Below, piece after piece: positions 10,401 through 58,562 of a stretch of DNA of 64,000 nucleotides. A program made the position numbers and the translations under genes. The stretch's first letter is position 1. Each line of letters begins with the position of its first letter. The notes under the pieces are model-generated. The model was not told the origin of the DNA. It saw nothing but the letters and a program-made list of their open reading frames with translations, and did not search any database. Source of the stretch: Anodontia alba (taxonomy: Eukaryota; Mollusca; Bivalvia; Lucinida; Lucinidae); contig OZ024828.1 in NCBI GenBank assembly GCA_964016985.1, positions 82,508,308 to 82,572,307 of the forward strand, written 5' to 3'.

Positions 10401-12865
10401 TATTTTGCGTCGACGTTCGATATCTCCTCGACTATAAGGCCTACAACCATCAAACCTTGCAAAGTGCTTCTTCTCAATGTACTGACTTGGCAGATACCTT
10501 GACCTGGTGACCTTGACCTATATATTGGCTGCAGTGACTTTGACATAATTAACGTCAATGTTGCAGATCTCCTCAAGTGTAAGACCTCTAGCCACCAAAC
10601 CTTGCATAGTGCTTCTCCTAGATGTACTGACTCGGCAGGTATCTTGACCCGGTGACCTTGACCTATATTTTGCGCTCCAGTGCCTTTTACACATTTTACG
10701 TCAACGTTCAATATCTCCTCAACTGTAAGGCCTACAACCATCAAACCTTGCATAGTGCTTCTCCTCAATGTACTGACTCTGCAGGTACCTTCACTGGGTG
10801 GCCTTGACCTATATTTCGCGCTCCATTGACTTTTACACCTTTTACGTCACCCTTCCATATGTCCTTAACTGTTAGGCCTTCAACCACCAAACCTTATGTA
10901 GCACTTCTTCTCGATGTACTAACTCGGCAGGTACCTTGACCTGGTGACCTTGACCTATTTTGTGCACTCCAGTGACTTTGACACATTTTATGTTGATGTT
11001 CGGTATCTCCTCAAATATAAGGCCTACAACCACTAAACCTTGCATAGTGCTTCACCTCATTGCACTGGCTTGGCAGGTACCTTGACCCGGTGACCTTGAC
11101 CTATATTTGACACATTTTACGTTGATGTTTGATAACTCCTCAACTATAAGGCCTACAACCGCCATACCTTGCATTGTGCTTCTCCTTGATGTACTGAATT
11201 AGCAGGTACCTTGACCTGTGACCTTGAGCTATATTTCATGCTCCAGTGACTTTTACACATTTTACGTCAACGTTCCATTATCATTGGGCTGTATGATACG
11301 AAAAGTCAGTGCTGAAGATATAGCCATTAGAGGGAATGGGACTGGCCTGGAATATATGTGCCCCACTAGGCACTTTGTCTACATATTTTTCAACCCTGTT
11401 TTCCAAGTAAGCACTGCTAAGAATGAAATAAACTTATTTAATAACCACGCTCTGAATGTGGCTCCTGTGACTTTTGCCCCAGCAGGTGCGATGATGCCTT
11501 CCGCGGAATTCTTGTTTTAAAGTATTAAATACAATATTCTTGCATAGTTTGTTACTAATTGTTACCTCTTAAGCGAAGGTTTCCTGACAGTCAAATTGTC
11601 ATTATAATGAATTTTGTCGTTGTATTGAGTGTTGGTACAAAGAGGGTTGGCTGTAATAGTATTTATGTCAAAGCACAGGGTGATGGATACACTTGGAAGA
11701 TTTTGCTGCCTTTTTGCGAAGGGAGACAATATTTGCAGAGAGCAAGTTGCCCCCATAGTACATAAAGTGTTTCAGAAAATGGGGACTAAAAGGAAAGAAT
11801 TTGCTCCCAGAGGGAGCAAATTCTTCCCTCAATGAGAAGGGGAGATATGCACAGAATCCTAGAATAAAGCTTAACTTTGACCTTAATTATTTCCCGAACT
11901 TTGAAGAAGTTGGAAGGGCAGAATGCTTTTGGGGGATTTTTGTCCAGTTGTCTGTTTGCCACACTTTTCTTGCCAGCAAGATATCTATATAACTATTTGA
12001 CCTAGTGCCTTGAAGCTTAATGAGCTTATTGGTAGTGAGGAGTAGCTCACCAGATCAACCATTGAAAAAATGGATTGATTTTGTACGAGTTTGGCTGCTT
12101 TTCACGCTTTGGCATTTTCTGTGGACAAGCATATAGTTGGTGGCATAGTGTTTTACAACCACATTTCTAGTTTTCTTGGGATCATTAACACTTAAATAAC
12201 CCTGATAAGATGCTTTTTTCAATCCTAAAGTATTGGTATTTTTCTTATTACTCCATGAAAATATGTTGTGGGTACTCATTTAAAGCACCTCAGTGAGATA
12301 CTTCTAATGAGTACCCACAACATAAGAAAAATATTTACCTGATACCCACTCTTATCTAGACCTATGACTGAAGACCTGAATCACTTAACCAGACAGTTCA
12401 AACAGTATCATGTTTACTCTAAATAGTAAGACACCTTAACAACTTGTCTTAAAGTTGAACTAGTATGCTTGCCCAGGTGTCAAAATATTTCGATTAAGCA
12501 ATCTCAGCTGCAATATTTTTTTTAGGAAATAAGTCTTTATATTGCATGTGAATAGTCTGCTAAGCTGTGAATAGTCTGCCAAGCTGTGAATAGTCTGCCA
12601 AGCAGACAATTCACATGGAACCATTCACATGAAAGGTCAAGATTTATTTTCTATGAAACATAATAAAATGTAAATGTTGTCTTCTACAGTTTTGCTTGGC
12701 TCTTTGAAAGTTAAGAATGATGTAGTTTCCCCTCACAGCTGCAGCAGACAACACTTTTAAATATTCTTGTTTGTTTTCCATAGATAATAAGTCTTGACAT
12801 TTCATGTGAATTGTCTGCCTGGCAGACAATTCACATGAAATGTCAAGACTTATTTTCTGCGAAAC

Positions 12866-12896
<31 letters not shown>

Positions 12897-15800
12897 TGGC
12901 TTTAAAAGTTAAGTTTGATATTCTGGCCACTAATACTACTATTCACAAACTAAAATATATACTGGTGTGTCTAATTTCAGGTTTCACAAAAGTTTGCTGC
13001 CATGTGCTACATCACCAGAGTGTGACAGGTAATAAGAACAGGCACTATATCAGAGAAACATTATATCACATGGACAATTATTGTAGACCATGTTTATATT
13101 GTATATCTGACTAGAGTTTGTTCTAGTAATTTGGGTCAGCAAATACATTAAGAAGGAGTAGTTGGTGATAATTTTAGGATAAATTTTCTGATTTATCCAT
13201 AAAAATGTATGTTGTGGGTACTCTAGAAATGCCTCACCGAGGCACCTAGAAGTGCCTCGGTGAGGCACTTCTAATGAATACTCGCAACAGTTTGTTTTTA
13301 TAACGAATTGGAGAAAATAATCACATAATCCCTAACATCTCCTCTGGGATGTATTTGTTTTCAGTTATAACTGTTCTAATATATTGTTTTCTGAAACAAC
13401 TTGCTTTTGTTTCATATTTAAAATATAAAGCTCAATTTTCTTGGTTTTGAAAAAAAAAAAAATAATAATAATAATAACTACTTTTAGTAACATCTGAAAA
13501 ATTCATTATGTCATAAATCAAAATGTTCTTTAAGTTTCACCCCAATTGTTGATGTTCTTCACGTTTCACTACCATTGTTGATAATATTTATCTCCCCCCC
13601 CCCCCCCCCCCACCACACGCCCCCCCCCCACCCCAATGGGCTTACGGGCATATAGTGTTTAAACTTTATGACTAATAATCAATAACCTTTTGTTATGCCT
13701 TGTTGAGATATGTGTCTGGTCTGCAAGGCCTTTTAAGTTGGCCCCGAAAGTACCATAAAGCTCACTGCAGATCTGTTATGCTGAAAAGTTTACCTTAACT
13801 AGAACCATAGGACACAGATGCCCCCCTGAAACTGGGGATAAAAAAAAAAAAAAAAAAAAAGGAAAACCTTGTTAACTCTCTGGAGGTCACATGTTTGAAA
13901 TAATCTCTATAAATCCTGCTGGAAATGTATGTTCTGATGATTTTCAAGTCAGGTTCGAAATTGGGCCACTTGGGGTCAAAAACTAGGTTACCAGGCCAAA
14001 TAAAAGGAAAACCATATTAACACTCAAGGTCACATATTTGAAGTAATCATGAATTCTGCTCAAAATGTTTGTCATGATGATTTGTATGTCAGGTTTGAAA
14101 CTGGATCACTTGGAGTCAGAAACTAGGTCACCAGGCCAAATCAAAGAAGAACCTTGTTAACACTCTGGAGGTCACATTTTCTAAGTAATCATCATGAATC
14201 TTGCTCAAAATATTTGTCTTGATGGTTTCTAGGTCAAGTTTGAAACTGGATCACTTGGAGTAAAAAACTAGGTTACTAGGCCAAATCAAAGGAAAACCTT
14301 GTTAACACTCTAGAGGTCACATTTTTATGTAATCATCATAAATCTTGTTAAAATTGTTTGTCTTGATGATTTCTAGGTCAAGTTCGAAACTGGCTCATTT
14401 ATGACATATTTCATGGTCCAGTGACATTATTTTTTCTGTTTTGGCCAGTTTCTAAGTAACTATTGGTCCTACAGCAGTGATAATTGGCACTTGCATATAT
14501 CTTAGCATGACCTTTTGAATGCAGTCATCCATACTTGTTCATGGCCTATATTTCACAGTCCATTGACTTTATTTTCTGATTAGTGAGTGTCTCAGTAACT
14601 ATCGGTCCTAGAGTAGTGATACTTGGCACATGCATACATCTTAGCATGACCTTCCATATTTGACCTTGACCTGTATTTCATGGTTCAGTGACTTTGTTAA
14701 GTTTTTGTCTTTTGTCAGTTTCTCAGTAACAATTGGTCCTACAGCAGTGATGCTTGGCACATGCATACATCTTAGCATCACTTGAGTGCAGTCATTTTAT
14801 TTGACCTTAACTTATACTTCACGGTCCAGTAGGCATGCTACTTGTCTTAGTTTAGTCATTTATGTTATAATCATGACTCTTGGTCTGAATGTTTGTCTTG
14901 TTGATTTCTAGGCCAGGTTCTCTAAGTGCTATGATACTCAAGTGAGCAACACAGGGCCATCAAGGCTCTCTTGTTACAGACTTTTGGCCCTAAGTGGTAT
15001 CTTGTCAAATATGCAGACAACATAGAGACAATTATCTCGTGCATCTGCAGTTGAATCAGTGCCAACCTATTGCTGTATACATTCCACAAAACTCAGAATT
15101 TGTTTATGTCTAATGTATAGACCCTGGCCCCGAGGCCATAAAACTTTTTTCATGCTCAACTCAACTGAGCATGAAATTTCTTTTGGTCATAAAAATAAAA
15201 ATACCAACAATTAAAACTTTTTTCGTGCTCAACTCAGCTGAGCATGCTCAGCTGAGTTGAGCATGAAAGAAGTTTTAAAAAATTGTCAGTATTTTAAGAT
15301 TTATAAGCAAAATAAATTTCATGCTCAGCTGAGTTGAGCATGAAAAAAGTTTTATAACCTCGGGGCCTAGTCAAATTGAGGCTCTTTCTGACTTGTACAG
15401 GTCTGCAGCTTTTTCATGAGTCTGCACACATGAAATATGTAGTATACGTACCTATTTCAAATGTTTTGAAGGACAGGTGATGCCTAAATTGGGAAGTTTT
15501 CCTGTTTGTTTCAATGCCCATTTGCAGTGGTGTGATTTCTAGATACATTTTATGTGTGTAATAACTTACTCACCCCTGTGTGACAGATGTTTGTCACCCT
15601 ATTCTGTGTCTATTACAGTGCTAGAGGAGCTCTTCAGTCCAGTATTGTAAAGATTCTTTTAGGAGTAGATATCATACAGGTTAGTCTCCTAAATGCTTTA
15701 ACTGTTAAAACTCTGAGCAAGTTTGCAGCAGATGATATTCTAAAATTGTTTTTTTATTTCTCGGAGAGAGGCTAAGCAGATGATTTACATGAAATGTCAA

Positions 15801-18800
15801 GCCTTGTAGTGATTTGTGCTTTAAAGGCTCCATATTCCTAAAAAAAAAAACACAAAAAAAAAAAAAAAAAAAAAAAACACAGACGTTTTATTCTCCAAGA
15901 AAGGTTTAATAAATCGATATATGGTATTAATATAATTGTAAAATGTGGCACCTGACAGCCTGTAAAATTTCACCTTATAGTCACTTGTTCTTGAAATGAA
16001 ATAATTTTTAATTGTATCTCTGAATTAATGTTGCCAACATTTAGAGATATCATAAAAAAATTTCATTTTTGATCCAGTTAAAAAATGAGACACTAACTGA
16101 AATTTTACAGGCTGTCAGATGCCTCATTTTATGATCATATTAATACTATATGTATATATCAATTTATTAAACGTTTCTTGGACAAAAAAAAGTCTATTTT
16201 TGATGAATATGGAGCCTTTAAGGGTTAAGACAAGAGGGTTTCAATTCTAGTCTGTTTGGTCACCTTGGTACAAACAGTCAGTATTGCATAGGTTAAGGGG
16301 ATGAATTTCGCTGTCTTGGTGGTGGTTATGTGTTTGTTTGTTTATCAGTTCTTTAATGCTTAATGCTGGATACATTTTTTTTTTATTTTCTTTGCATTTT
16401 TTTTCAGACAAAATTAATGCATGCTCTTCTGGAGAAGTTGCCAGAATTTAGTGGAGATGAAGAGTAAGTTTCTATAATTTGAGCCAGCGCATGACAAAAC
16501 CTACAAAATGACGTGAGCCGAGTGAAGACTCAGATCAGCCTGGACAGATGCCATTTTGTAAGTTTTGTCGTGCGCTGGCTCATTTGTTTGTTACTGGTGT
16601 TTTCTGGGGGTAATATTGCTGTGTATAAACTAAACTTGTGTGTAAAAGAAAATATACATTGTGGGTACTTGTCAGAAGCGCCGCGATGAGGTGCTTCTGA
16701 TGGGTACCCACAATGTATGTTTTTATGGACAAGTAAGAAAATATTAACTTTTTTTGGTTGAGAAAAGTCCCTTATGTGGAACTATGATAATACAAGCATT
16801 TTAAAGTACATAATGTATGCATTTAAAGTAAATTGCCTTTCATTATCAAAAAAGATTATTTTCCATGTTTGGTATGCCATTTGTTATCCGTTTGTCTGTC
16901 TGTTTGTCTGTCATACTATCTCCTTCTAAACCACTGGGCAGAATTTAACCAAACTTGCTTCATGACCATCCTGCCTGGTAAGGGTGTGCAAGAGCAAAAT
17001 TATATGGACAGTAATTTGTTTCCTGGTATTTTGCTGGACGATAAGAGGGGCAATTTAAATTGTGAATGTCAAGCCATATAGAGATATTTCACATGAAATT
17101 CAAGCCCTGTTGGGGTGATTTTCACAAAGTTTTGAGCCCTATTTTCTCAGAAAAATACAGAATCTTGTCTACTTATATACAGGAATGTTTTGCTGTGATA
17201 GTTAATAAGAATGCAGAGCAAGCGGGATAGTTTGTTTCTATCATTTTGCTGTTCCCATCGTATAGGAATACAGTCGATTCTGGTTATCTGAAGATATTCA
17301 TATGTAGACATATCAGATTTGCAGAACTGAGGAAAAAATAAATCGAACAACCACATTTCACAAATGCATATGTAATTTGACTCTTGAAGTTAGTGATATA
17401 TTGAAAATATCATGGAAAAGAGGAGAAATTGCTCCTTAGGACCAATTTCTCCTCTTTTCCACAATGTTTTGTTTCTGTTGTTAGATTTCCATGTTAAAAC
17501 AGGGACAAAATTTTCGTTTCGAGATAAGTGGTTATTTGAGATAAACAAAGCAGAGATAATGAGAGTCGACTGTATATACCTGTGAGTCGCATTGTCAGAA
17601 ACTATTCCTGCACTTGGTGAAGACTCAGGTAAGCTTGTGCAGTCTGATCAGTCTGTACTGTCTGCATAAAGAAACCTTGGTTCTCCATATAGAGCACTCA
17701 GTGAAGACACTGATCCTTGCAGGCTGATCTGAGTTTTTGCCGGGCACACATTTTCTTGATTTTGCTGCTTATGTAGGAAATTGTTGCTTTTCTCATGAGG
17801 GCTCTGAGTAATATTTGGTGATCTTTCTAGGATAATTTTCTCATTTTTTTATAAAAAGGGAGCACTCCAGAAATGCCATGGTGAGGTGCTTCTGATGAGT
17901 ACTCACAACATGTTTTTACAGAGAACTGGAGAAAAATATCTCAAAATCATCACCAAATATCACTTCTTAACCCTTGCCATGCTGAATAAATTGAGATGCC
18001 ATTCCCACTTCTAATTGTAAGCCAATCAGATTACTTGATCCAGATTGTTGATACAAATTCACATATCGAATGACAAACGTTGCAGATCCAGATCAGTTGG
18101 AAGCCAACCTAGCTAGATCTACACTGTTTGCAAAGGCAGGGCATATCCGGGTTCAACAGGACTAGGGTTACAGGTCCTCTGTTTTCTTAAAGCAAGTCTG
18201 ATACTTTCTCTTCCAGTAGCAGTATATTTGAGCAAGGACAGAAAGTAAATCTGCCCCATCTACTGATGTCACAGTTTCAGTGGCTTGATAGAATCATCAA
18301 TGGAAAGGTATTAAATGTCACAGTTGAAAGCTCACCTGAGCTGAAGGCAGAGGATGAGCTATAATGATCAACTTACCTTCTGTTGTCAGTCCGTCCAAAT
18401 ACTGTGGGGTTTTATACATGCTCTAAACAATCTACACCTTATATTATCTGGTTTTTCATCCATGAAAACTTTATTGTGCCAGCCACAGTGTCTCAGTGGG
18501 ATGCACATTCGACTCTGATCAGGAGATAGCTGGTTTGATCCCCACTCGTCCGGCAGAAGTCTTTCATGGAGATCAATCAGGAAATATTTTCTACAGTCAT
18601 TCTCTCTAGTCTGCTGAATCAAGAAGGTCAGTTGTTAATTTCTGACGAGAGAATGTGCATAAGTACTGGTTAACCGCTTAGAGGAATAAGCCTGCCAAAG
18701 AAAAATGTGGTAGGTAAATGGACAGGTTCAGTATGACCTTAATGGGTTGACTGGGCCGTAAAACCTCAATTAAAAAAAAAAAAGAAACAAAAAAAAAACA

Positions 18801-21800
18801 AACAAACAAACTTTATTGCATACATCTGAAAGATGCGAATACAAATCTACCTGTATTTGGAAATATTAATATATCTATTTTAGTGTAATATATTTCATGT
18901 CTCATTAGAAAGTGCAAATAAATACAAATCCTAATTTAATCCATTTGATAAACCAGGCAATTTTACGTTAAAATCACCCTAATATGAAATGTTGGCACAT
19001 GGATAAAGTTTATATTATAAGCACTTTGATTAATCAGTTAAGATAATCCAAAAGTTTCATCAAAATTGGCAACATAGAAGTTCCTTAATTTGCAGAAAGA
19101 CCATGGCACCTACAAAGTTCATGACCATTTAGATGATACGTGACGTCACTACAATTGCACTGACATCATAATTTCATCACATTCTTTATTTTAACTCCAC
19201 TTTTTAAATGCAGTTGGATTGATGTTTAACCCGTTTGTCCCTACAGCCCCAAAAAAAGATACCTTTGCAAATATTGCAGATCCAGATGAGATGGCTCATA
19301 ATGAGCCATGAGCAGGATCTACACTGTGTTTGCCATTCTGTTTTTGATTTTTGACTGAAATCTCTATTTGCATCAGTGGACAAGTCCAGTTCAGAAACTC
19401 AGGGATGAAAGGGATTAAGGTAGTGGAAAAGTTTGCTACAGCAATAGTTCACAACTTTCTTAAATGGACGGCTACACACATTGGGTCCTTCATTCTAATG
19501 TTGATTATAAATCTATTTCTGAGAAGTCACTGTCAATCTATGGCTTCCAAATGCTTAGTTTCCTGTAATTTCTATACATTTTAAGGAGCTTTGGATTGAA
19601 AGAGTATCCTGATAAGTATATTTTCTCCATGAAAACATATGTTGAACATACGCATTAGATGTCAACCCCCCCGGTGGTTTATTCTACTGACAGTTCTAAG
19701 GCAGTGGTTCGGTGTTAGTCTTACTCTTTGTTCCTTTGTGGTTTATTCTACGAGGCAATTGGTTTTGTTATGCCTTGTGTTATTTTGTTCTTGTGTTTTT
19801 CAGTCTTTTTAGCATTGCAATTAACTCGCTTGGGAAAGTGAGAGCTAATCTTAGTGCTTTTCTTATGTTTGTTCGATTTGCGCGTGGTCTGGGAAGGGCT
19901 GTGGCTTGTGATTGTGGCACTCCCTGGATTTTCCTCTTACCTTTTGATAAGGCTCTTCATATGTTTTAGCGAAGAAATAAGAAAAATATCAATAGTTTTT
20001 TGTTGAAAGGCAGTGAAACTTTAATCTCTTTATGAAACTGTATATGGTAAATGTCCTAAAATTTCAAACACTTTATTCCATACTTTTTTTGGCTTAAATT
20101 TTGCTTTTTATGCATTTGTCTCTTAAAATGCTTAGTGGACTGGCAAACTGTGAAGACCCTGATCAGACTGCTTCTTTGGGAGCAGTCTGATCTGGGTCTG
20201 CTGTGTTTGCATATGGCATTTTGTCAGATACTTTGGTGTTCGAAAGTTTAGGACATTTACTGTACCTATGATACTCTGCATTCCCAAGAACCCCAGCCAT
20301 AGTGTTCTAAAGGAACTAGTTTGTAACTACATCATCAACCAAATGACATACACCACAACCTCTTTATAACACTGTTTCTGGGATCGGAAGCAAAGACCTT
20401 GTGGGCTAAAGGACCTTGTTGTATCCAAACAAAGTGTCTGTAGATAATATAGAAAAATGACCGTAAATGTTAAAGTGTGTAGATTTTATGATCTATGAAT
20501 TTTTGTTTGGATATAGATTATATAGATATAGGACCATCAGTGGTTATTTTTCTGTATAATCTATACATTTTAACTTCATAATACATTAACCTATAGATAA
20601 TGTGCTATTCTCTTCTGTTTTCACACCTTCCACAGAAAAAACGACCTTTCAGTCGTTAATTAAAGTCTTAAACCAGAAGGTCCCTTAGGCAGTTACCTGT
20701 GTGACGTAACTCTTCCCGCTCAATTGACCACGTGTCAGTTTCTTTTCTGTGGACAAAGAAATTCAACAAGGATTATTTACCTGTGATAGAAATTTGGATT
20801 ATTTCTTTCCTCACGGATAAATTTATGTATCCTTGTGTTTCTTTTATTTATTATTATATTATTTCTGATTTTTCACCAGGCAAACTTTTACAGAAAGTGT
20901 CTGGTCAATTTTTGCCTAATAATTAATTATCTTCGGGAAAAAGTTTTGAATACTTGTGCCCGCTCAGTTTTCATATATAATCTCCCTTTTTCATCGGACT
21001 AGAGTTACGAATACTACTATCCGATCAATTTGTCAAATTACTTGTAACTTTACCGGGCAACAGTTACGAATACTAGTGTCCGGTCATTATGTCGGGTAAC
21101 TAGTGTCAAAATAATGATCACTAATTCCCGAACAATCTATTATCGTTCATAGAGCTCCATTCACGTTTAAGTCAATGGATATAGTTTATTAAGTGAAATA
21201 CATAATAACTTTTTATACAAAAAATTCTGTACAGTCTTTCCCGAATCAGACTAGAATCTTTAATATTCCATTGACTTATTATAGGTGTGTAATTCCATTA
21301 ATATTTTAAATTAGCTTATGTTTTATCTCTTTTATCCGCTAGAAAGAGTTAAACTTCCGACTATAACAAAATTCTTACCGGGCAGCAGTTCGTAGACTAG
21401 TGCCAGGTCATTCAAATTATGTTTTATCTCTTTAATTCGCTAGAAAGCGGTTAAATTCTGGCTCTAACGAAAATTTCATCGGGAAGCACTTCGTAGAGTA
21501 GTGCCAGGTCATTCTAACGAAATTACACCTGGCAGTAGTTTCGGAGACTTTGTGTCGGATTACTAGTGTCCGAGTAGTAGTCACTACTACACGCTCAACA
21601 TATATTTATTTATTAACCACTATAGACATGTATAGTCTTGGATTATAGGTTATTGAATGACAGCGATGGGTTCTAATACCTAGTAGCCATTTATATTGTT
21701 GAATTCTGTCCAGTATTTTTTGAACTTGACTTAAATTCTATATATATATTTATTATTGAAAATGAATTAAGAATTATCGGTTACGATCAAATTCGCAATT

Positions 21801-24800
21801 CATTCACTAAGTGTAGAAGATACTTCCAGCTATAATTATATCTCTTTTATTCGCTACAAAGAGATTAACTTCTTACATATTCACCTTATTCGGCTCTAGG
21901 GCAAAGGTGAACTATAAAACTATCGTTATTTATAAGAAGAAAAATATACACGAAATCTAAAAAATTTTCTTCTTTCCTCCCCTGTTTTTCTTCTACATGC
22001 TCCGATATGTAATCAGCATGTAATCTAAGGAGTAAATTGACAAGAAAGTAGCAATCGATCTTTTCTACTTTCTATTAATTTTTCATTCTTAAGGTATCGG
22101 AAATTTACACCAACCAGATAAATAAATTAACAGTTTATTTATTTATTCGCTACCTCTCTAGATTACTACGATTTAAAATTCTAGTTGAGGTACATATTTT
22201 CCTTTTGCCTTTTCTACATGGAAAATAGTTGATCCGATAAGCTATTATTCTATTTTATACTATCTTTTGATTGATTATATAAGAGTCTAGGTCAGTCGTG
22301 CTCTGTCTAAACTCTGCTATAAAATAATAAATAAGAAAAAAATGTTATATTTAGGCATAGATATAATTCGATACGTTCTTTACTTTGCCTGTTTTATTTT
22401 TTCTTCTGGATCATTTAAGACTACGATAGCAATATACCAGATATTTTTGCCTCAGTAAGAATCTATTACGCCGAAGATTCTTCATATTGGAATAATAGTT
22501 TTATTATGATTATAATTTCTAGATCCAATTAATCCTCGTATATTATAGGTCTACTTTATCTTATTGAGGAATAGTTTTGCTTCGACTAGCTCTATACCTC
22601 TAATATTTTATTTATAACTAGAGTCCATGTCAATCAAAATTTTCTTGCACTTTGGTATTGACAATGGATACATATTTAGTAAAGGCATTAATTATTCAGT
22701 ACGTGACAGATTATTATTGCCTAAATTAGATATTATATACAATACTTTCCTTTTGATATTTTGTTTTATTGACTTTGTAACTATTCAGAAACTGCCAAAG
22801 TCAATCATTTCCTTCATCTAAACTTACCGAAGCTCTAGATTATGTTGATATATATTTTTGATATATGCTTAGAGGTTAATTAACGAGAGTTTACCTCATA
22901 ATAGCAGATATGATTATATTTATATTAATCAGTGTATAGTCTAGGCTTAGACAAAAGGGAAAACATCCTTAATTACGAGCCGGTAAAGAATTAAGACACA
23001 CTTAATTATCTCTTTACCCCTTCTTTATGTTTACATTCGTTAAAGGGATCATAGAAATTTCGCTAAGAGTTCAAGTTCAGTTTGCGAATAATGCAAAGAT
23101 TAATATCTTGATTTCCAGTCCGCATCAAAAATGGTCTATATATATAGATAAATATCTTTTCCTAAACTGGATATTTATTTATTTTTCCACACAATAAGTC
23201 ATTTCAAGACGTCAATGATTTTGAAATGCACTGCTTCAATTTATAATATAAAATATGTTTATATTAACTTCACAACTTAGTAAGTGCTGCACCTACGTTC
23301 CTGGTCAGATCTTACTTTTGTGATACGTTTTTTGAACATACTGAAAGTTTTCTCCGATTATACATTCAGTAAATAAACTTTCGAATAGTATTTATGCTTT
23401 TAAACATTCAGATTATTTGATAATTGTTGGAGATAATATATTATTCCGATATTTATATATCTATCTTCATTATTTATCTTTCTCATCTTACTTTTAAATT
23501 AGATTGACCTTCTCGCTACGTTCCAGGTTTAAATCTAGCTAACATTGTGGAACAGTCACTTTTTTATTTCCTAAACAATATTTTAACATTTTTCTCAGTA
23601 TTCAGAGCATAACGACTTCATGAATACTTGGAAATAATTCAATTCTACGCTTGTTAAACTAAGCCTAAAACAAGCCCTGGTTTTTTGGAATGGATATTAT
23701 CCTTCGATTCAGTTCATGGAGATACATCCTTTTAGATCCCATTATCTCTATTTCAATCATACAAAATTCTAATGACTAAGTACTCCTTTTCTACGTACGA
23801 ATACAGAATATCGAGTCACTGTTGCTGCATATTGGTTAAAGATTAAACAAATTTTATCTTAAACCTATATGACGTTAAATTAATTATTATCTCTTTCATA
23901 TACATGTTTTTACCCTTCCGTCAGGGATCGTGGTAATAATATTATTACTCTCTATGGTTTACGCATAGATCTCGAGAGTATATATATGTATTTTCTTCCT
24001 GAATTCATTTGCAAGTACGTAATTTGATATTTCAGGAATTACCAAATATGCAGACATAGATTTTATTCTATTAATATTCAATTCTAAAAATTTGATTGAA
24101 TGTTTATCTATAAAATTTCTGGGCAGTAATTTTATAGAGAGTTATATGTTTAATAATTCCTTGCTTAATAAATAGTTAGGCTTAACCTATTATTTATAGC
24201 AGGAATTTTGTTCCGTAGTATAATTTTAATTTAGTATTAATATATTTCTTACTATTCTTAAATATGCATATAGAATAGTAATACTATCTCTTAACTTATA
24301 AATTAAGTGTTTTTTGAGATTATTAATCAGTATTATTGTATAATCTTTCTTCAGAGATTATCACACTATTACTTTTTCTCTGAGTCCTTCTCTTTTTATG
24401 AACATTTTGATTCGGATCAAAGTGGATTTTTTAACATTTCTTGATTTCCATGATTATTTACTCAGGAGACTTTTCATGATAATCTTCTGGTATAGAAAGA
24501 TTCTATCCAGCTTATTTATTATTGCTTAATCTTATCAATACGGTAAGATTTAGCCAAACTATGACCGTCTTACAGTTTGCTGCGATCAACCTTATTCTTA
24601 TCTCTCTTATTCTCTGTCAAACTCTTAAGTTATGATGTTGACAGTTTATTCTTTATTATTTTGTCAGGACATCAAACGCTTTTATATGTCTATGACAAAA
24701 CTAATTATCAATGGTTTAGGTTGTTTTTTCTTCCCAGCAGTTATATGCAAACTCTGTATTATTTTATAACTTGACTAAAATTTCATAATACAATTAGTCT

Positions 24801-27800
24801 AGCAATAGTTTTAACCATTATGTTTGTCTATACCTTTTTCTTCTGATGGATAACTTAGTTATAGTTAAGTTAACTCCATCTACTTTTATTATCTCCCCTT
24901 CTTTAATTTGATCAAAGGGAAATAATTACATATTATGGTTATTTTAAGTCTGTGTCTGTTCATCGGAAACTGTCCTGTCGTTCCAATTAACAGAATCTAA
25001 TTAGTTTATAATTCTAATAGCTTAGACTATTACAATTACATAGCTTCACATATCTAGAATTTTATCCAAAATATCTACATATGTCGGTTATCTATAGGAA
25101 ACTCCACCGAGTAGACTTTTCCTTATTTATTCAAGACCCTACATAGACTACTTAGAGTGTATGGTCTTGGCTTTTTGTTTTACAAATTTTGTTTTGAAAA
25201 TATTTCTATATTCCTAGCTTACTTTGCGATGGAATATTTATGTTATGTCTCAATGACTCCCTTTTCTTTTTGAAGCCAATTGTTGTTTCCCAAAAAGAAA
25301 AAAAGAGGGGGGGGGGGGGTGGGGGGTGGAGGGCAATGTTAGGTCTCTGAGACTTACGAACTGGCTTCCTCTAGAGTCTACTATTATATATAAGGTTGTT
25401 AGATCATAACACCTTAAAGATATGCTATTTTGTGAATCTAGATCATTCTTTCTATTAAATATAGAATTAGAATGTATCTGATTCCTTTGAGTTTCCTGAG
25501 TCTTAACCAGAAGTGGTGAGATATTATTGGTGTTAGAATTAGGAGAGCACCTCCCTCCTATTCTGCAAATTCTAGCACATTATCTATAGGTTAATGTATT
25601 ATGAAGTTAAAATGAAGTTTTTTAAAAGTAAAACATATTTTAACGAGTAATACTTAACCTATAGATAATCAATTATCTCCCTCCGCCCACCCTCGCTTAT
25701 CTCTCCTAATTGTGTCTATTGTTTTACACATAAAAGAAACTGACACGTGGTCAATTGAGCGGGAAGAGTTACGTCACACAGGTAACTGCCTAAGGGACCT
25801 TCTGGTTTAAGACTTTAATTAACGACTGAAAGGTCGTTTTTTCTGTGGAAGGTGTGAAAACAGAAGAGAATAGCACATTATCTATAGGTTAAGTATTACT
25901 CGTTAAAATATGTTTTACTTTTAAAAAACTTCATTTTAATATGGTCATTATACCCTGTCATACGATAGTGGCGGGGTATAATGGTATCATGTTGGCCGTC
26001 CAAGTGTCCATCCGTTCGTCCATCTGTCATCCGTCGGTCCATTTGTATTTTCATTTCAGGATGATAACTTGAGTAAATAGCAATGGATTTTCACCAAACT
26101 TGGTATGTGCATTGATGTTGTGGAGATCTGTTTTGGGATTGCTGATGGTCAATTTTTTGTCAGAGTTATCTTCCCGGGACACGTCTGTATTTTCATTTCT
26201 GGACAATAGCTTTAGTAAATATCAATGAATTTTCACCAAAGAAGAAGAAGCCAGTTTGATAGCTTTAAAAATGCTTTTTTAGGAGATCACAGAAAAGATG
26301 ATAGAGATGATTGGAATAACCTGTGAGGAGGTACAAAGAGAAATAATCACATGTTTACCCGATGTTGTTGAAGACACAGAGCATGCTACAGTTGCCTTAG
26401 CCCTCAGGTAAAGCAGATAATAAATGTTTACTTTAAAATCTGAATGTTTACTTTAAAATCAAATTTTATATGGACCTGGAATAAAAGTATCTTGAAAAAG
26501 AAAAAAAAAAATCATCTTTTTACCAAGATGATCACATGCCCATATATGTTAAAACCACATTAAAGACCTTCTCCAGAACCAAGAAAACTTTGAGGCTGAA
26601 TCTTTATATATAGCATTAGGGATGGGAGGTGTACCAATTTTCAGGTTATACTCCTAGGCTGACCTTTCACCTTTTTATATCAAGGCCAAATTTGCATCCC
26701 TGTACAAATGGGTAAACTGTTGGAAAGTCATTTTCTCAAACTGTATTGAAGATGAATGGAAGAATCTTGCAACATTTGGTTAAAGATAAAATTTTATTGT
26801 CGTAACTGCTTTAGCAAGCGGCAGTGATATAGATATCACTTTCTGGCATTGTCCTTGACAGCATCAACAATGTTAAAGTCTGTGTGTTTAGCTCCGTTTT
26901 TCAAACACTAAGGCTTCTAGGTCAATGAAACTTCATACACACATCTGCCATGATGCACTGATCTCGACCTACTTTTCATACTTAACTGAACAATGTTAAG
27001 TCTGTTTCTTTATCACCACCAACAGTTGTGACTTAGCCATTTGGCGAATTTCTTGTCCTTGTGGTGTTGTCTGACCCTGCCCCAGGCCAATATAATTGTA
27101 TAAATCATGAACAAATCTAAATAAAATCATAGTCCAAAATGATTTTTCTGAACCGTTCAGAAAATGATGGAAGTGACTAAAGCTTTCTATTACTATTGAA
27201 ATTTTGTTGACTGTGAGTGGTCGTTCCCTACCCAGGGGTTATATACATATATATAGTCGACTCTCGTTATCTCGAAATCCAAGGGACTCTCTGGAATACT
27301 TCGAGATATCCTTATCTCAACATATCAGATTTGCAGACTTGAGGAAAAAAGATAAATCAAACAACCACATTTCATGAATATGTAATTTTACTCCGGAAAT
27401 TAGTAATATATTGAAAATATTGTGGAAAAGAGGAGATATTGCTGAAAATATTGTGGAAAAGAGGACAAATTGCTCCTTAGGAGCAATTTGTCCTCTTTTC
27501 CACAATATTTTGTTACTTAATGTTTAAACAGGGCCAGATTTTCACTTTGAGATAAGCGGTTATTCAATATAAGCGAGGTCGAGATAACGAGAGTCAACTG
27601 TATATAATAATGACAAAAATCTGCATAAAATCTGGGTACTTATTGTCACTTTCCTTTCAGTTTTGAAGAAGTGTCCACATGGCTGAGCGGTTAGTACTTC
27701 TATCTTTGGATATCTCTTGTGAGGCGCTTCTAACAAGTACCACAATATGAGACAGCTCACGACAAAACCTACAATAAAACTTGTGCGACCAGCAAAGACT

Positions 27801-30472
27801 CACATCAGCCTTCGCATCTGCAGAGTCTTCGCTGATTGCATGTGTCTTGTACAGCCTATAGCATAGGTCTAGACAAGAGAGGGCATCCAGTAAATATTTT
27901 TCTTATTTCTCCACAAAAACATATGTTGTGGGTACTCTTTGGAAGTGCCTCGGTGAGGCACTTCTAATGAGTACCCACAACATATGTTTTCATGGAGAAA
28001 TAAGAAAAATATCAATACTTTTGGATTGAAAATAGCGCCTTAACTAGTGCTATGCTCCAGGCTATCCAAAGAGCAATGAACAAGAACCATTGCCATACTG
28101 GATGGATGTACAGGCAGATCTGAGTCTTTGCGCTGGTTACTCAGGTCTTATTGTAGGTTTTGTTGTGCGCTGGCTCATATGTTTTTATGGAGAAATAAGA
28201 AAATAACTTTCAGTTGAAATCTTCTTATCTGGACCTGTGGTTTACATTAGTTTTAATCTGTGATGTTTTAATGTCTTGAAGAAAATGTATTTCCCTTTCA
28301 GAGATGTTTTGAAAGAGAGCAAACAGCTTACTGTTCCTGTGCTAGATGCCATGTCAAATTTGATTCTCAAGCCAGAACTGCTCACTGAGGTAGGTATTTC
28401 TTTTTAATTAATATATATATTGATATGAAGCAAACAGAAATTCATTAACCAAGAGAGAGTGGGTCACAGCAGCTGCTGTAGCAGATAAAATCTTGATTTT
28501 TTTTTTTTCAGAGAAAATAAGGCTATTTACTTTTTAAATTTCCTTTGGGATCATTGAGCCCAATCCTGTTGCGATAAAAATCGAATTCTGCTTAACCGGT
28601 GCTAGGGGCCCGCATGTAGCCTCGCAAATGTCATTGCTGTATATGAAGACACTTAATAAAACCGAGTCTCCGCTTTTCATTCTTTTGTGTTTTCTTTGTT
28701 TCCAAAGGCAACCTTTTAGATTTTTATTTACATTTTATATGAATTATCGGTTAATTCACATGAAATGTCATATAAAATCTAAAATGTTGCCCTTGGAAAC
28801 AGTGAACACATAAAAGAACAAAAGCCGGCCTCAGTGGCTCAATTAGATGGGCGTCCGATTGGTGATCAGGAGGTTGTGGGTTGAATCCCTGCCGGGTCAG
28901 CATCATTATTACGTGGAGATTGATCGTGAAATATTTTCTATGGTCATTCTCTCCCTTCAGCTGATTCAAGAAGGGCAATTGTCAGTTTCTTGTGAAAGAA
29001 TGTGCACAATACTGGTTAACTGCTTAGAGGACTAAGCCTACCAAGTAAAAGTATGGTTAGGTAAACTGACCGTGCTCAATATGACCCCATTGGGTTGACT
29101 GGGCTGTAAAACCTCAAAACAAACAAAAGAACAAAAGTAAGAGTCTTGGTTTTGAATCACCCCATATGCAACAGTGTAGTTTGCCGGGCTGCATGGGCCT
29201 CAAGTGGAACTGGATGATCCCAAGGAAAATGAAAATGAAAGCTACACGTCTTATTTTTGGAGAAAAAGGCTTGACATAAGGCTTGTCTGCTTTGCACACA
29301 ATTCACATGAAATGTTAAATATTTTTTTTCCTGAAAAATAACGCAAAAAGAATTAAAAAATATTAGACAATCTTAGCACTCTTGGTAAAATTTTTAGCAG
29401 AAAACAATTTGAAATGTTTTTCTTATTATTACCAGGAAACAGGAGTTGACATTTCATGCAAATTGTCTCCAATGGTGACAATTTGCATGAAATTTTAGGC
29501 CCTGTTTTCTGGGAAAAATAAGAAAATATCATCCAATTTGTCGTCTGCTGAATTTGCCCAGAGAGTGGTAAAGGTTAAAGGTTAATTTCTCACTAGCCTA
29601 GATCTAAATATTTTTGCAGAAAAGACTGTCTGGACAATTTCATAGAGAACATGTTAACCCTTTCCCCCCTGAGTTTCTGTAGTGGACTCTCCCATCTTTG
29701 AATTTGAACACATGGATTGTTGCAAATAGGAATATCAATCAAAAATCTAGATTAGAATGGCAAACTGTAATTCCTGATACCACTCGTTATGAGCTGTCAC
29801 ATCGGGATCTGCACTGTTTGCATAGGTATTATCGAGGTCTATCAGGCTGAAAGGAATAAAGAAGAATAATAAGTGATAATTCTGGGAAATATTTTCTTTT
29901 TTCTCCATAAAAACATGTTGTGGGTGCTGAAAATGACATTAAACTCCTAATTCCACATTTCCTTGTTCTCTGGTACCAGCAAAATGCTGTAGTTGTGATG
30001 CAAGTCCTTAAAATGATCTTTTCCCGAACAAATTGTAACGGTAATTTTCCATCTATTTGTGATATTTAAAGATGCATGAATGAAGTACTGGGAAAGTCTG
30101 TTTGCAGTTTGAAATGGGTACTTACTAAGGTGGAAAGATATATCTTCAAAGGAGATCACTTTGACTTTAAAGTGTTTGTCTCCCTTTTGAAGGGGGCTAC
30201 TCTCAATGGAAAGAATCTGCTCTCAGCTGAAGCAAATTCTTCAAGAATATCCTCCTTGAGAGGGGGCTTGTATACCTGTGGAACAAATCCCATTCTGCTT
30301 AAGTGGTCTCAAATAGTGAATGCCTTGACTAGCTGGCTCTACTGCACAGGTTGGTCAGGATCATTGCTCATAGCTATAGACAAGACCTTTTTTTCAACCA
30401 TAAAGTCCAGATATTTTCTTATATCTCCACAGAAACAGACACGTGGGTACTCATCAGAAGCACCTGGAGGCG

Positions 30473-30504
<32 letters not shown>

Positions 30505-33500
30505 TTGTTATATACATGTGGCATAAATGTGGCTCAGTTTTAGCATGAATGTAGCCCTTTCATATAGTAGAACCTCCACTGACGGGCACCTTCCAATAAT
30601 GATGATTTCCCCTGATTTTTACAGTGGTGTTTTACTGCATTTAACCTCTGTATAACAACCAGTTTTTATGCCTACCCAAGGGTGATTAAATTACATTGTA
30701 CAGTCAACTCTCGTTATCTCAGGTTCAAGGGACTTTCTGAAATACTTCAAGACATCTATATCTCGACAATCAGTTTTTACGTCTATCCAAGGGTGTCAAA
30801 TTACATTGTACAATCGAATCTAGTTATCTCAAAGTCCAAGGGACTTTCTGAAGTACTTCAAGACATCCATACCATGACATATCAGATTTGCAGAATAGAG
30901 AGAAAAAAAAAAAAAATCAACCACATTTCATAAATGAAAATGTAATTGATTCTTGAAGTTAGCTATATATTGAAAATATTGTGGAAAAGAGGAGAAATTG
31001 CTCCTTAGGAGCAATTTCTCCTCTTTTCCACAATATTTTGTTATCTGTTGTTAGATTTCCATGTTAAAACAGGGTCCAGATTTTTACTTTGAGATAAATG
31101 GTTATTTGAGATCAGTAAAGTCAAGATAATGAGAGTTGACTATATTACTCTTTAATTACAGGTGAGAGAGTCAGTACTACAGTCTCTGATCTCAGTGGAC
31201 ATGGATGATTTACCCATGGTTGTCAAGTTTCTGCTTCACTCTATATCAAGCACAGATGCTGTGGAGGTAAAAAAAAAGTATTTCTTTTATTATGTTTTAT
31301 CTGCTGTTGTTGAAAAAGAGGGCTCATACACTTGCTGATTTGTTTACTTGTCCACAGGTCTTGTCAGGATGGAATTGTCCTGGTGGCGGTGTGGTTAAAG
31401 CTTCGAGCTTCGTCAGTTCGGATAACGAAATCCTGGAGTCAAATTCCGCTAGAGGCAAATTTCAGCTCTTAACTGTATCACGCTTCACAGCACTGAGTCT
31501 TTGATAATCACCCCATCATTGTCTTGATATGACATAAATAATGTTGAAAGAATCCATAGCTCCAGATAAGTGGGAGTATATGGATGATATTTTTCTTACT
31601 TCTCCATGAAAACATATGGTTACTCATTTAGAAGTGCCTGATTGAGGCACTTCTTGTAAGTATCCACAACATGTTTTTGTGGAGAAAAATGAAAATATTA
31701 ATACCTTTTGGTTGAAAAAAGTGCCTTTCCTAGAATATGTAAAAAAAAAGGTAAGAGAAAAGTCCAGGGATTGCCACAATCACAAACCGCAGCCCTTCCC
31801 AGACCCCGAGGAAGAGGAAACCAACAAATCCAAACAAGCACAAATCAAACAAATGTACGAAAAGCACTAAGATTAGCTCTCTCTTCGCAATACTAAAAGG
31901 ACTGAAAAACACAAGAACAAAATTATCATCATCATCATCATCAGTCACCATTGTCATATCAGAAAAACACACTATTTTAAATGTTCAAAACAGGCAGCAG
32001 TACAGGCTGTTAAGTTTCAGATGAACAGACTGTCCTTGTGAATTTATTAGACGGGAACTTTTTTTGTCCCTCTAGTCATTTCTTAAAGAATTAAACCCCA
32101 ATTAACTGGAACATTCATATCTAGAATTAAGTTCTAGTTGTACTTCTCTTTTCTGTTTATCAGTGTTAGAAATTAGGGGATAACTGCATTCAAATTTGGC
32201 ATTTGGGGAGGTAAATCGGCGGTTTTACGGTCGGAAATTTCGTTTTACGGCGACGCGTCAGCGGAGCCGTAAAACGTAATTTGCAACCGTAAAACTGCCG
32301 ATTTACCTCCCCAAATGACAAATTTGATGCAGTTATCCCCATTCTAATGCATTTATTCATTTTTTTCTATTGAAAAAATGTACTATTTGCACAAAACGGC
32401 AAGTGCTGTGAGCTGCAGTAAAACCAAACGCCAGCCAATGAGATGCGACGTTACGTGATGACGTCGGATTTGCGACAGTATATCGCAGAATATACCGTCG
32501 CAAATTTTTGACGTTATCCAATCAGACGTCGCGTTACATACGCGAGTGCATTAGAATTAACTTTATTCACAAGTAGCAAGTAGTTGCCACCTGGTCTGAA
32601 AGTAGGTAGCAAAATGCATCTACATGGCAGCAAAAGGTGTTGCCCCATGCCATGGGTTAAACCTTCAAGCGCTAAGCATATTTAGCAGACAGCATTTTCA
32701 AAGTATAATTTTTATTTCAGCAAAAATGAGGCTTGACATTACATGTGAATTGTCTGCTTGGTGCAAATTAGACGACATTTCATGTGAATTGTCTGCTTGG
32801 CAGACAATTCACATGAAATGTCAAGTCTAATTTGCACTGAAGACATTTACAACACTTAAAGCTGATAGTGTTTGGGGCACACAACCAGGTAGCAATTTTT
32901 TGCTACCAACACTTTGACTAGGTAGCAAACTGAATTTTCAGGCAGCAAATTTGCTACTTGCTACTGTTAATTTCGAACCCTGTGTTTATAAAAGTGAGTG
33001 ATCCTAAAAATCCAAGATATTAATGAAGTCCATTCATGACCCCGGTTAATTTGTGTATCTGCATCATTTGAAAATAGTTACCTGTATACCATAACATTGT
33101 TTTGTATCGACAGGTTGTGAGTGAACTGAGAAGTAACCTTGAGTTTGATTCGTCTACAGCTAGTAGTAAACAGAAAAAGAAATCTCATAGGTACGTGCAG
33201 TGTCTAGTGGAAGGGGAATGTATACACTTTCAGGGGAAGCAACTGTGTGAAAATTGTTTTAAAGGGGGTCTACTCTAAAAGGAAAGAATTTGCTCGCAGA
33301 TTCTTTCCTTTTAGAGTAGACCTTTTCAGAAGGGACTTGAGGTGTAGAAAAGCAAACAAGAAGCAACTGTGAAAATTGTTTTAAAAGCAGGTCTACTCTA
33401 AAAGGAAAGAATTTGCGAGCAAATTCTTTCCTTTTAGGTTAGACCTTTTCAGAAGGGACTTGTGTAGAAAAGCAAACAAGAAGTCACAAAGTTGTTTCCT

Positions 33501-36500
33501 TTTTCAAAAATGATGTTAAATCAACCAAATGTATCATGTCCTCTTAAAATACTGTGTTAGCAAATAAAAGTCTTGCTTAGTTAAAATAAATTGTGGTCAC
33601 CGTCACAGGTTAATTCTATATGAGCCAGCGCACGACAAAACCTACAATAAGACCTGTGTGACCAGTAAAGGCTCAGACCTGATCAGCCTGTACATCCACC
33701 CAGTATGGCAATGGTTCTCATTTATCCCTCTTTGAATAGCCTGGAGGCTGAAGAAGGCACATGGGATCAGCGAAGACTGATCAGACTGCGTGAATGTGCA
33801 GGCTCATCTGAGGCTTTGCTGCTCAAAACAGATCTTATTGTAGGTTTTGTCATGCTCTGGCTCATTTATGAAACAAAATGAGATGATGTATCTTTGGATG
33901 TGTGTGCTCAGGGAAGACTGATCAGCCTTTGCTATGGCATGGTTTGATCAGAGTTTACCGTCCTCTCCTGGGATAGCACAGGGTCCAATGTTTTTGTATG
34001 GACAGCATGGACTGACCAGACTACGATGTGCAGGCTGATTTGAATCTTTGCTGGGTGCATATGTCTGAAGGCAGAGTTGTGGAATTATCAAATTTTATTA
34101 CTTGTCCACAGACAAGTAAATGGTCAAAATCCACTTTTTTTCTTATTTCTTGAAGAAAACATATGATGTGGGTACTCATTAGAAGCACCTTACCATTTAG
34201 AAATTTAGAAGAAAAAAAAATCAAAAAAGAACAAAATCATAATCTGGATGCTCTTCTGAAAAAAAAAAAAAAAAAAAAAAGCAGCATAATATTTCCGCAG
34301 CTCGGCTGAAGGTATATCCAACTTTGTCACATATACAGTATATATGTGCCATGATTTGGAGAAAACACTACATTTTACAGTGCTCCGTCCAATATAATTA
34401 GAAGAATTTTTTGCAATATTTCTATGAAAGGTAAATGATTTAAATACAGTAAAGAAAAGTTTCTCACAAAAATCAAATTATTTTTGGAATTGCTGAGGTC
34501 AGATTATACTAATATTTGGGTGTAAGTTTTATTTTTATATTTGAGGACAAAGCACAGAAGCCGAAACACAAGCTGTTTGTAATAGGATGTTTGCTGTCAC
34601 AACTGAATATTTTAATTTAGTATAAAATACCAAGCTAAATTTGACTTACCAAGTGATGTTGAAAAGACAGAAGAGCTGTAGCTTTAGCATTTGTGCAGAC
34701 AGGTTAGGTTTCTGTTGTATTCCATACATATTCTATAAAATCATACATAGTCTAAATAAGCACTTTTTTCATCCAAAAAAAAAAAAAAAAAGGGCCCAGT
34801 TGTTCAAAGCATCATCAGCTTAATGAGCTTGTTAGTGGTCAAAATGTTAACTGTTCTAGTAAATACAATATCTAATTCATGGGTATTTTTGCTGAAAAAA
34901 TGTGAGTAGCTTTTGCAAATGCAAAAGCTACTCACATTTTTTTCAGTAAAAATATTAGCATATATGCTGTATTTAATGATCAGTTTTAACGATACATTAA
35001 CTAATGACATCGTTAGTTTTGAACTTGGCCCTGATATTTTTCTTTTTTCACCATGAAACGTATGTTGTAAGTATTAGCTGAGTTACTTCTAATGAGTTGC
35101 AATGTTAAGACAAACATTTATTCGGATATCCTTCTTATATAGAGCTAGGAGTTCACCCTTTTGTGTCAACAACACTACGTCTTCTTTGCCTTGAAGCTCC
35201 TGGTGTCAAAAAAGTTAGCGAAACCCTTGTGTCAAAGCTTAAAATTGAGAGAAATAACCTTCTGCTGATACAAGAAGGGCAAGTGTCAGTTTCTGACAAA
35301 AAGAATGTGTACAATGCTGGTTAACCGCTTAGAGGACTGAGCTTGCCCAGTAAAAGTGTGGTTAGGTAAACTGATCGCGCTCGACATGACCCCATGGGGT
35401 TGACTGGGCCATAAAATCTCAACACAAACAAACAAACTGAGAGAAATAAAAAAAAAAAAATAATAATGTTTCAAAATGTCATCTGCTGATTTTTTTTTCC
35501 CAGCATGCTGTGTTAAGGGATGTTAATGAGAAAAAGTATGTTTCCCTGTAGCACTGAAATGCCCTGGGCCCAGTTATTCAAAGCATTGTTAGCTTAATGA
35601 GCTCATTAGTGGTCAAAATGTTAACTGTTCTAGTAAATACAATATTTAATTTCTAATTGTCCCCCGCCTTTTCGAAGAAAAGTGGAGGGACACAGTTTTT
35701 GGTTTTCCGTGGGGCGTGGTGCGTGGCACGTGGCGCGTGGTGCGTGGTTCCGAGTTTTTAGTAGGTACTTTGTCCCCTTAACTCCTCCCACAGTTTTTGT
35801 CCGATCCTTTTGAAACTTTACGGGTGTTTTAAGGATGGTCTGAAGATGTGCATGTGGTTTTTTCAGAATCCTGAAATAATTTTTTATCACTTTTTCCGCG
35901 TTTTTAACTTAGACATTTTTTGAGTTCTAATATTACAGAAGTCTATAGGGAGTAGGTACCTTGTCCCCTTAACTTCTCCCACAGTTTTTGGCCGATCCTT
36001 TTGAAACTTTACATGAACTTTTAGGATGGCCTGAAGATATGCATGTGGTTTTTTCAGAATCCTGAAATAATTTTTTATTACTTTTTCCGCATTTTTAACT
36101 TAGACATTTTTTTAGTTCTTATACTACAGAAGTGTATAGGGAGCAGGTACCTTGTCCCCTTAACTCCTCCCACAGTTTTTGGCCGATTCTTTTGAAACTT
36201 TACAGGTGTTTTAATGATGGTCTGAAGATGTGCATGTGGTTTTTTAGAATCCTGAAATTAATTTTTATTACTTTTTAGACATTTTGAACATAGACATTTT
36301 TTGAGTTCTAATATTACAGAAGCGTATAGGGAGTAGGTACCTTGTCCCCTTAACTCCTCCCAAAGTTTTTGGCCGATCCTTTTGAAACTTTACATGGGCT
36401 TTCAGGATGGCCTGAAGATATGCATGTGTTTTTTTCAGAATCCTGAAATAATTTTTTATTACTTTTTCCGCATTTTTAACTTAGACATTTTTTGAGTTCT

Positions 36501-57500: not shown

Positions 57501-58515
57501 AAATCATGTTTTCAGAGAAAAATAAGAAAAATATTTGAAACTGTCGTCTGCTGAAAATTTTACCCAGAGTACTAATTAACATTTACCACTCTCTCGACTT
57601 ATATTTCCCTGAAAATAGGCTTTAACATTTGGAGATAGTTTGCTTGAAATGTCAAATCTTTTTTTTTGTAGGAAAAAAGATGAAATATTTCTGAGAGTAT
57701 GTTGTCTGCTGAAATTCTTACCCAGCATGCTAAGAGTTAATGCTCATTGATTCTATATTCCAGATGTAGTGGTATAAGTATGGGATTATTGCATGGTTTA
57801 GACGATGAAGAAGGGGGCATAGCCATTAATTTACTGCCATTGGTAGCACAGAAATATAGTAAAAGAACAGCTCTTGCTGTGTACACTGAAAGGTAAGGTA
57901 GTGTATTCCAGATATAATTGTGGTATTAGTATGGGATTATTACATGGTTTAAATGATGAAGAAGGTGGCATAGCCACTGGTAGCACAGAAATATAGTAAA
58001 AGCTGCGTATACTGAAAAGTAAGGATAAAGTTGTGATATATTGGATTTGTTTTTTATAGGTCCAGATAAGAGAGGGTATAAGGTAAATATTTTTCTTATT
58101 TCTCCACGAAAACATGTTGTAGATACTCATTAGAAGCACCTCACAGGCTCACAGCATATGATTTTGTGGAGAAATAAGAATAATGTTTTGGTTGAATAAA
58201 GCCCCTTATCTGGACTGTTGTGTTTATGGTTACTTAAATGCAGTACTTCTATTTGTGCTAATGGCTGAGGTCAAATTCTGTCTGCACATCCATGCAGTTC
58301 AGTCAGTGTCTTTTATTTGCTGTTATAGTATTAATTTCAAGATAAGAGGGTATTTACATAATAATATTGAACATATGTTGTGAGTACTCATTAGAAGTGC
58401 CTCAAAGAGGTGCTTCTAATGAGTACCCACAACAGACATTTTTATTGAGAAATAAGAAAAATGTCAGCAGTTTTCGGTTGAAAAAACAACAACAAAAAAA
58501 CAAACAAAACACACG

Positions 58516-58562
<47 letters not shown>

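Follow-up and report, generated by a model that had tools for sequence, protein, structure and literature searches.

What kind of element is a 5.37-kb segment that looks like a chain of hairpins, and do the hairpins account for its existence? The segment lies within 64,000 nucleotides of the bivalve Anodontia alba (GCA_964016985.1, contig OZ024828.1, positions 82,508,308 to 82,572,307 of the forward strand; this whole stretch is called the window, and its own numbering is used below). An earlier note on this DNA had described it as an intronic series of short stem-loops with no coding capacity and an organisation matching no described element class. We found that the limits given there, 20574-25931, are the interval between two copies of an 8-bp direct repeat, CATTTTAA, and that the ends of the segment identify it: it is very probably a non-autonomous DIRS1-like retrotransposon, full-sized and inserted recently, lying in an intron of FANCD2 in the same orientation as the gene.

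Termini and internal complementary region

The hallmarks of DIRS1 elements are inverted terminal repeats (ITRs) and, at the 3′ end, a left and a right internal complementary region (ICR) that overlap on a 3-bp circular junction; the termini read NTT, mostly ATT, a right extension is matched by the right ICR only, the outer part of the ITRs is divergent, and a motif of 10 nt or more recurs in each ITR and each ICR (PMC3266345). The same diagnostic signs are given in PMC8969392. Five mollusc DIRS elements measure 4,680-5,808 bp, and ATT/ATT/AAT occurs in four of the five (PMC3266345).

When the segment was compared with this description, we found that 25573-25669, beside the right ITR, is the complement of both termini joined end to end, without a single difference in either half (Table 1). 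The two halves overlap by 8 bases, TTAAAATG, which contain AAT and are the complement of CATTTTAA; thus CATTTTAA stands at both outer ends and once, as its complement, at the ICR junction. An ICR near the 3′ end, complementary to both termini and overlapping in a circular junction, is what DIRS1 elements carry. DIRS1-like elements make no target site duplication, and the placing of CATTTTAA may reflect a recombination core shared with the target. The terminal trinucleotides are also those of DIRS1, with ATT at 20567-20569 and 25933-25935 and AAT in the ICR; by the DIRS1 convention the left ICR measures about 41 bases and the right about 59. Furthermore, each ITR and each ICR half contains the 16-bp motif TTAACCTATAGATAAT or its complement (at 20586, 25579, 25654 and 25877), which has no other exact match in the window. 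The ITRs comprise a conserved part, perfect over 161 bp, and a divergent one, in which the outer 17-19 nt are partly complementary by eye. Because the ICR adjoins the right end, the plus strand was taken as sense. The insertion appears to be young, since the termini and the ICR are without differences from each other. The view that no described class has this organisation was therefore mistaken for the element as a whole, because ITRs combined with an ICR equal to the joined termini are DIRS1-like.

We also observed that the ITRs (20586-20746 and 25732-25892) contain TGACGTAA adjoining TTCCCGC. These presumably resemble CRE/ATF and E2F sites and might mark a promoter in the ITR. Both ITRs of Dictyostelium DIRS-1 are reported to have promoter activity, and an artificial cassette with ITRs around a gene fragment has been described (PMC4482531). 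The ITR pattern had no exact match in viral contigs, and the element was without a match in phage records.

Table 1. Positions of the element, its parts and the neighbouring exons in the window
Feature	Position	Strand	Remark
Whole element, DIRS1 convention	20567..25935	+	5,369 bp, ATT at start and end
Left copy of 8-bp direct repeat, candidate recombination core	20566..20573	.	CATTTTAA
Right copy of 8-bp direct repeat	25932..25939	.	CATTTTAA
Left terminus, divergent ITR part	20567..20585	+	
Left ITR	20586..20756	+	20586-20746 perfect (161 bp), last 10 with 3 mismatches
Non-coding interior	20757..25572	+	about 30% GC, hairpin-rich
Seven copies of one hairpin unit	20875..21560	+	stem of 8 bp, then a small internal loop, a 3-bp stem and its loop
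Tandem duplication	21316..21517	+	101 bp, 82% identical, holds two hairpin units
Polypurine tract, A then G	25292..25319	+	A5GA7GAG13, sole purine run of at least 18 in the element
Left ICR	25573..25614	-	exact complement of 20566-20607, 42/42
Right ICR	25607..25669	-	exact complement of 25877-25939, 63/63
Right ITR	25722..25892	-	
Right divergent ITR part and right extension	25893..25935	+	full match in right ICR only
First downstream FANCD2 exon found	~26283..26408	+	Pfam FancD2 positions 193-231, 30.5 bits; ends by eye
Next FANCD2 exon found	~31162..31266	+	Pfam FancD2 positions 263-297, 31.8 bits; ends approximate

Interior and hairpins

The element is the most A+T-rich part of the window. 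Its six interior frames hold 99-157 stops each in about 1605 codons, the longest open stretch is 106 codons, and none of eight blocks of 600 bp has a period-3 signal (P 0.40-0.90). Pfam searches of the six read-through frames revealed no family above cut-off, in a scan run without an autonomous DIRS element as positive control. Collectively, these results support the claim that the segment lacks coding capacity. Because genes for reverse transcriptase (RT)/RNase H, methyltransferase and tyrosine recombinase were not found, we call the element DIRS-like by its termini only, and non-autonomous. Matches below the Pfam cut-off to Pam3_gp32 (E 0.045), GBR_NSP5 (E 1.8e-4) and Alp7A_like_C (E 1.2e-3) were taken as chance in A+T-rich translation, as were two Rfam matches (E up to 5) that scored far under their gathering scores. 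The polypurine tract is followed by more G runs, with the ICR downstream. We take it to resemble a retroviral polypurine tract or, alternatively, a quadruplex-prone sequence; the former reading would fit the plus strand as sense.

We found 23 non-overlapping perfect stems in the interior (at least 8 bp, loop 3-40), compared with 6.0±2.2 and a maximum of 13 in 40 local dinucleotide shuffles. All nine perfect stems of the earlier note are in this list, at the same place or a few bases away. Its seven compound stems were recovered in part: three (22982-23018, 23144-23182 and 24659-24700) have a core of at least 8 bp in the list, while the other four, which were without individual scoring and one of which (25530-25578) extends beyond the stretch counted, are absent from it. 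Single mismatches inside stems, counted as a possible mark of the strand that acts as RNA, were G-U in 8 cases and A-C in 4, against 4.5±2.3 and 3.5±2.2 in shuffles.

The stem density expected from the note thus held against dinucleotide shuffles but proved not to be peculiar to the element, as the flanks exceed their shuffles too. Counted in 2.4-kb bins, the element has 12 stems in one bin and 10 in the other (shuffle means 3.7 and 2.8), while 23 flank bins, one of which (18357-20756) includes the left ITR, average 5.4 (2.1 shuffled), and one of them (54741-57140) holds 12. At 4816 bp, the 23 stems of the element compare with a mean of 11.0 and a maximum of 19 in 83 overlapping windows of the flanks, which are less A+T-rich. 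The flank excess over shuffles is 2.75-fold for 8-bp stems. When expectations were scaled by the observed/shuffled ratio of 33 of the 48 flank bins (the 15 with at least 20% tandem repeat were dropped), the element had 36 stems of 7 bp (loop up to 30) where 29.1 were expected (P 0.12), 21 of 8 bp (loop up to 40) against 14.2 (P 0.055) and 7 of 9 bp against 13.2 (P 0.98). The hairpins are real; their density is only moderately above that of the surrounding DNA, and the flank-scaled excess is marginal at 8 bp and absent at 9 bp. Elsewhere in the window, 51826-59049 is also hairpin-rich: five overlapping 4.8-kb windows there contain 18-19 stems apiece.

Local folding energies showed that the element folds somewhat more strongly than the flanks at the window sizes tried. 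With 60-nt windows, the mean z on the plus and minus strands was -0.82/-0.58 in the element (80 windows) and -0.37/-0.36 in the flanks (400 sampled; P 2e-5 and 0.008); for windows with GC below 0.35, the values were -0.82/-0.58 (61 windows) and -0.24/-0.17 (153). Comparisons with 300 sampled flank windows each gave -0.43/-0.36 against -0.19/-0.15 at 50 nt, -0.61/-0.49 against -0.31/-0.31 with shifted 60-nt windows, and -0.96/-0.83 against -0.55/-0.57 at 80 nt, with P from 0.026 to 4.8e-6 on the plus strand and from 0.059 to 0.0023 on the minus strand. At 120 nt, the element had -1.36/-1.37 and the flanks -0.81/-0.78 (left) and -0.97/-1.10 (right). The strand difference in folding was not significant (Wilcoxon P 0.18-0.45), and 120-nt windows were equal on both strands.

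Near the left end of the interior, one hairpin unit occurs seven times, at 20875-20905, 20932-20964, 20993-21025, 21052-21084, 21377-21408, 21478-21509 and 21527-21560. In an alignment of these copies, which left out two hairpin-like stretches (~21095-21135 and 21553-21600) that by eye are unlike the unit, pairing holds in 88.0% of 75 cells, both partners have changed in 4 of 11 pairs and the covariation score is 0.225; 8 to 19 of 500 shuffles reached the observed values. Six slid registers were lower on every measure, the nearest (-2) having 3 double-changed pairs and a score of 0.156. A count with fixed arms, in which the upper stem of one unit (h) is out of register, gave 66 paired cells out of 77 (a number that 12 of 5000 shuffles attained), 5 double-changed cells (102 of 5000), 10 further pair types (20 of 5000) and 3 pairs with double changes (1075 of 5000). 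Since the units were picked for folding, the covariation is only suggestive, and we read it as a suggestion of modest compensatory change across the seven units. A covariance model searched over the window returned 12 matches: the seven training copies, one weak match (12743-12775, E 0.14) and four minus-strand echoes of the model's own copies (E 0.17 to 2.4). Below E 0.1 the window thus contains no match beyond the seven copies, and by this model the other stems lie outside the seven-unit family.

Alternative readings

The family features of piggyBac elements are TTAA ends, and those of hAT elements an 8-bp target site duplication. A cut-and-paste DNA transposon could here be piggyBac-like, with TTAA and then CCTATAG... 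at each ITR, or hAT-like, with CATTTTAA as the target site duplication, and it would suit the long ITRs, the TTAA directly before CCTATAGATAAT at both ends and the CATTTTAA on either side of the unit. However, the sequences outside TTAA recur exactly, joined, within the element (42/42 and 63/63). In this inner copy the 8-bp sequence is present a single time, as expected of a circle junction, and no cut-and-paste element is known to us that contains its outer ends in joined form. Unrelated flanks outside TTAA, as piggyBac would have, are therefore lacking, and the piggyBac reading was dropped because the internal segment equals the joined outer termini. A DNA transposon of either kind is very improbable. 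The same near-intact anatomy bears on whether a once-autonomous DIRS element lost its genes in place. Its length, equal to that of autonomous mollusc DIRS elements, would agree with such decay, but the termini, ITRs and ICR are almost mutation-free while the interior has about 100 or more stops per frame and lacks both codon periodicity and any domain above cut-off, which makes decay in place scarcely credible. From this contrast, the genes were probably lost before the last transposition, and the parent copy would already have been gene-free.

The hairpins allow different readings of the interior within a DIRS-like element. One is that the interior is a large structured RNA, its plus transcript being a selected hairpin chain used for packaging or reverse transcription and comparable to LARDs (large retrotransposon derivatives), plant elements discussed below. 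The folding z lies below that of the flanks at 50, 60 and 80 nt, less so on the minus strand, and the seven units are paired and doubly changed to a degree that few shuffles reach, which argues for selection on the fold. Against it stand the equality of strands at 120 nt and the non-significant strand difference, the confinement of the units to 0.7 kb without recurrence elsewhere in the window, their choice by eye for folding, the 1075 of 5000 shuffles that matched the double-changed pairs with fixed arms, and the marginal flank-scaled stem excess; we consider this reading unlikely. The narrower proposal that the element is a DIRS counterpart of LARDs, gene-free and full-sized, its length kept as a selected hairpin RNA whose fold is the unit copied by another element's enzymes, is about as unlikely. 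The hairpins may instead be footprints of mutation, template switching during reverse transcription or replication having copied one arm from the other in sequence free of selection. This reading concerns the origin of the hairpins, is compatible with a DIRS-like element, and agrees with the excess over shuffles in the flanks and with the lack of a significant strand preference; 9-bp stems in the element, however, are not above the flanks, and we regard the chances as evenly balanced. The idea in the earlier note that selection or sequence formation acted on single-stranded nucleic acid stands insofar as a DIRS element is a retroelement. The data do not demonstrate selection for hairpins, as the flanks share most of the excess, the strand bias is not significant and there is a single copy; the local folding energy and the seven units, with some compensatory changes among them, lend it modest support.

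Several points weigh against the identification as a non-autonomous DIRS1-like element. Membership would depend on the termini alone, as neither RT, RNase H nor tyrosine recombinase was found. The element is known from a single copy, and its 8-bp direct repeat exceeds the 3-bp junction described for DIRS. The matches to GBR_NSP5 and Alp7A_like_C, although sub-threshold, have low E-values and fall in one minus-strand frame. In addition, the covariation of the seven units together with the stronger folding gives a hint that the interior may be more than filler.

Host gene, proposed movement and related elements

Both downstream exons exceed the Pfam FancD2 cut-off of 27 bits. When compared with solved structures, the first matched FANCD2 residues 192-228 (E 5e-4), and an engineered repeat protein matched better (E 3e-5). 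No upstream FANCD2 exon was found in the 15 kb searched. Because roughly the first 190 residues should be encoded by exons farther upstream, the element is placed in an intron in sense orientation; the intronic position claimed before is thus supported by two exons downstream on the same strand, with no upstream exon found. Searches with the read-through plus-strand frames of 5561-20547 and 26100-41092 gave nothing at E 0.001 in the PDB and, in Pfam, FancD2 in one downstream frame (that of the second exon and not that of the first) besides weak matches below cut-off (Swc3, zf-U11-48K).

The flanks contain repeats of their own. An imperfect 25-bp inverted repeat (20512-20565) lies directly left of the element, and the left flank has weak matches around 49.7 kb (E 0.007-0.08), perhaps a sign of a small dispersed repeat. 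To the right, 26005-26100 belongs to a dispersed repeat that also occurs in the window at ~5.5-6.0 kb, 26.2 kb and 55.7 kb. Farther upstream, 1168-2863, 6883-8529 and 9511-11236 are three similar long tandem-repeat blocks, each with units of 146 bp and ~164-177 bp.

The anatomy was observed directly, and each step of the following cycle is modelled on DIRS. A plus-strand transcript would be reverse-transcribed with enzymes from an autonomous DIRS element, supplied in trans because the parent copy was presumably gene-free. The ICR would act as template or splint to join the two ends into a circle, which a tyrosine recombinase would insert by a crossover between its junction and a target that has up to 8 bp in common with it, CATTTTAA, leaving this sequence at both ends. 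The interior would then be filler freed from coding, its hairpins mostly the usual product of an A+T-rich genome, if somewhat more frequent, and including a small family of related units towards its 5′ end. Their abundance is best accounted for by non-coding A+T-rich sequence together with an overall tendency towards short inverted repeats, either in this DNA or through repeated rounds of reverse transcription.

The kind of element is known, and a full-size gene-free member is undescribed as far as the literature searched goes: we found no description there of non-autonomous, gene-free DIRS elements, Repbase and most subscription journals being outside that search. Which sequences are enough for a DIRS element to move in trans would be seen from a gene-free copy that keeps its ITRs and ICR intact, and the termini of such a copy make the model of an ICR-templated circle directly testable. 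Should several copies turn out to have compensated stems, RNA structure would join the requirements of a DIRS element.

With non-autonomous DNA transposons of piggyBac-like or hAT type, the element shares ITRs and a TTAA or 8-bp direct repeat at its ends; the ICR has, to our knowledge, no counterpart there. It resembles LARDs, which are plant long terminal repeat (LTR) elements, in being a large retroelement with a non-coding interior and presumed movement in trans, and LARD interiors are reported to specify well-conserved RNA structure (PMC7215508). Unlike LARDs with their direct LTRs, it has DIRS-type inverted repeats and an ICR. DIRS elements are reported mainly from bivalves and two gastropods, at low copy number (PMC10294476). 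The element differs from the DIRS1 elements described in PMC3266345 in that gag, RT/RNase H, methyltransferase and tyrosine recombinase genes were not found, in its hairpin-rich interior of about 30% GC, and in having as many as 8 bp of outer sequence, and not 3, in common between its ends. With these elements, of which AcaDIRS1-2 of Aplysia and LgDIRS1-3 of Lottia are mollusc examples, it shares the ITRs, the ICRs overlapping in a circular junction, the ATT termini, the right extension, the four-way conserved motif, the total size and an ICR adjoining the right ITR (PMC3266345).

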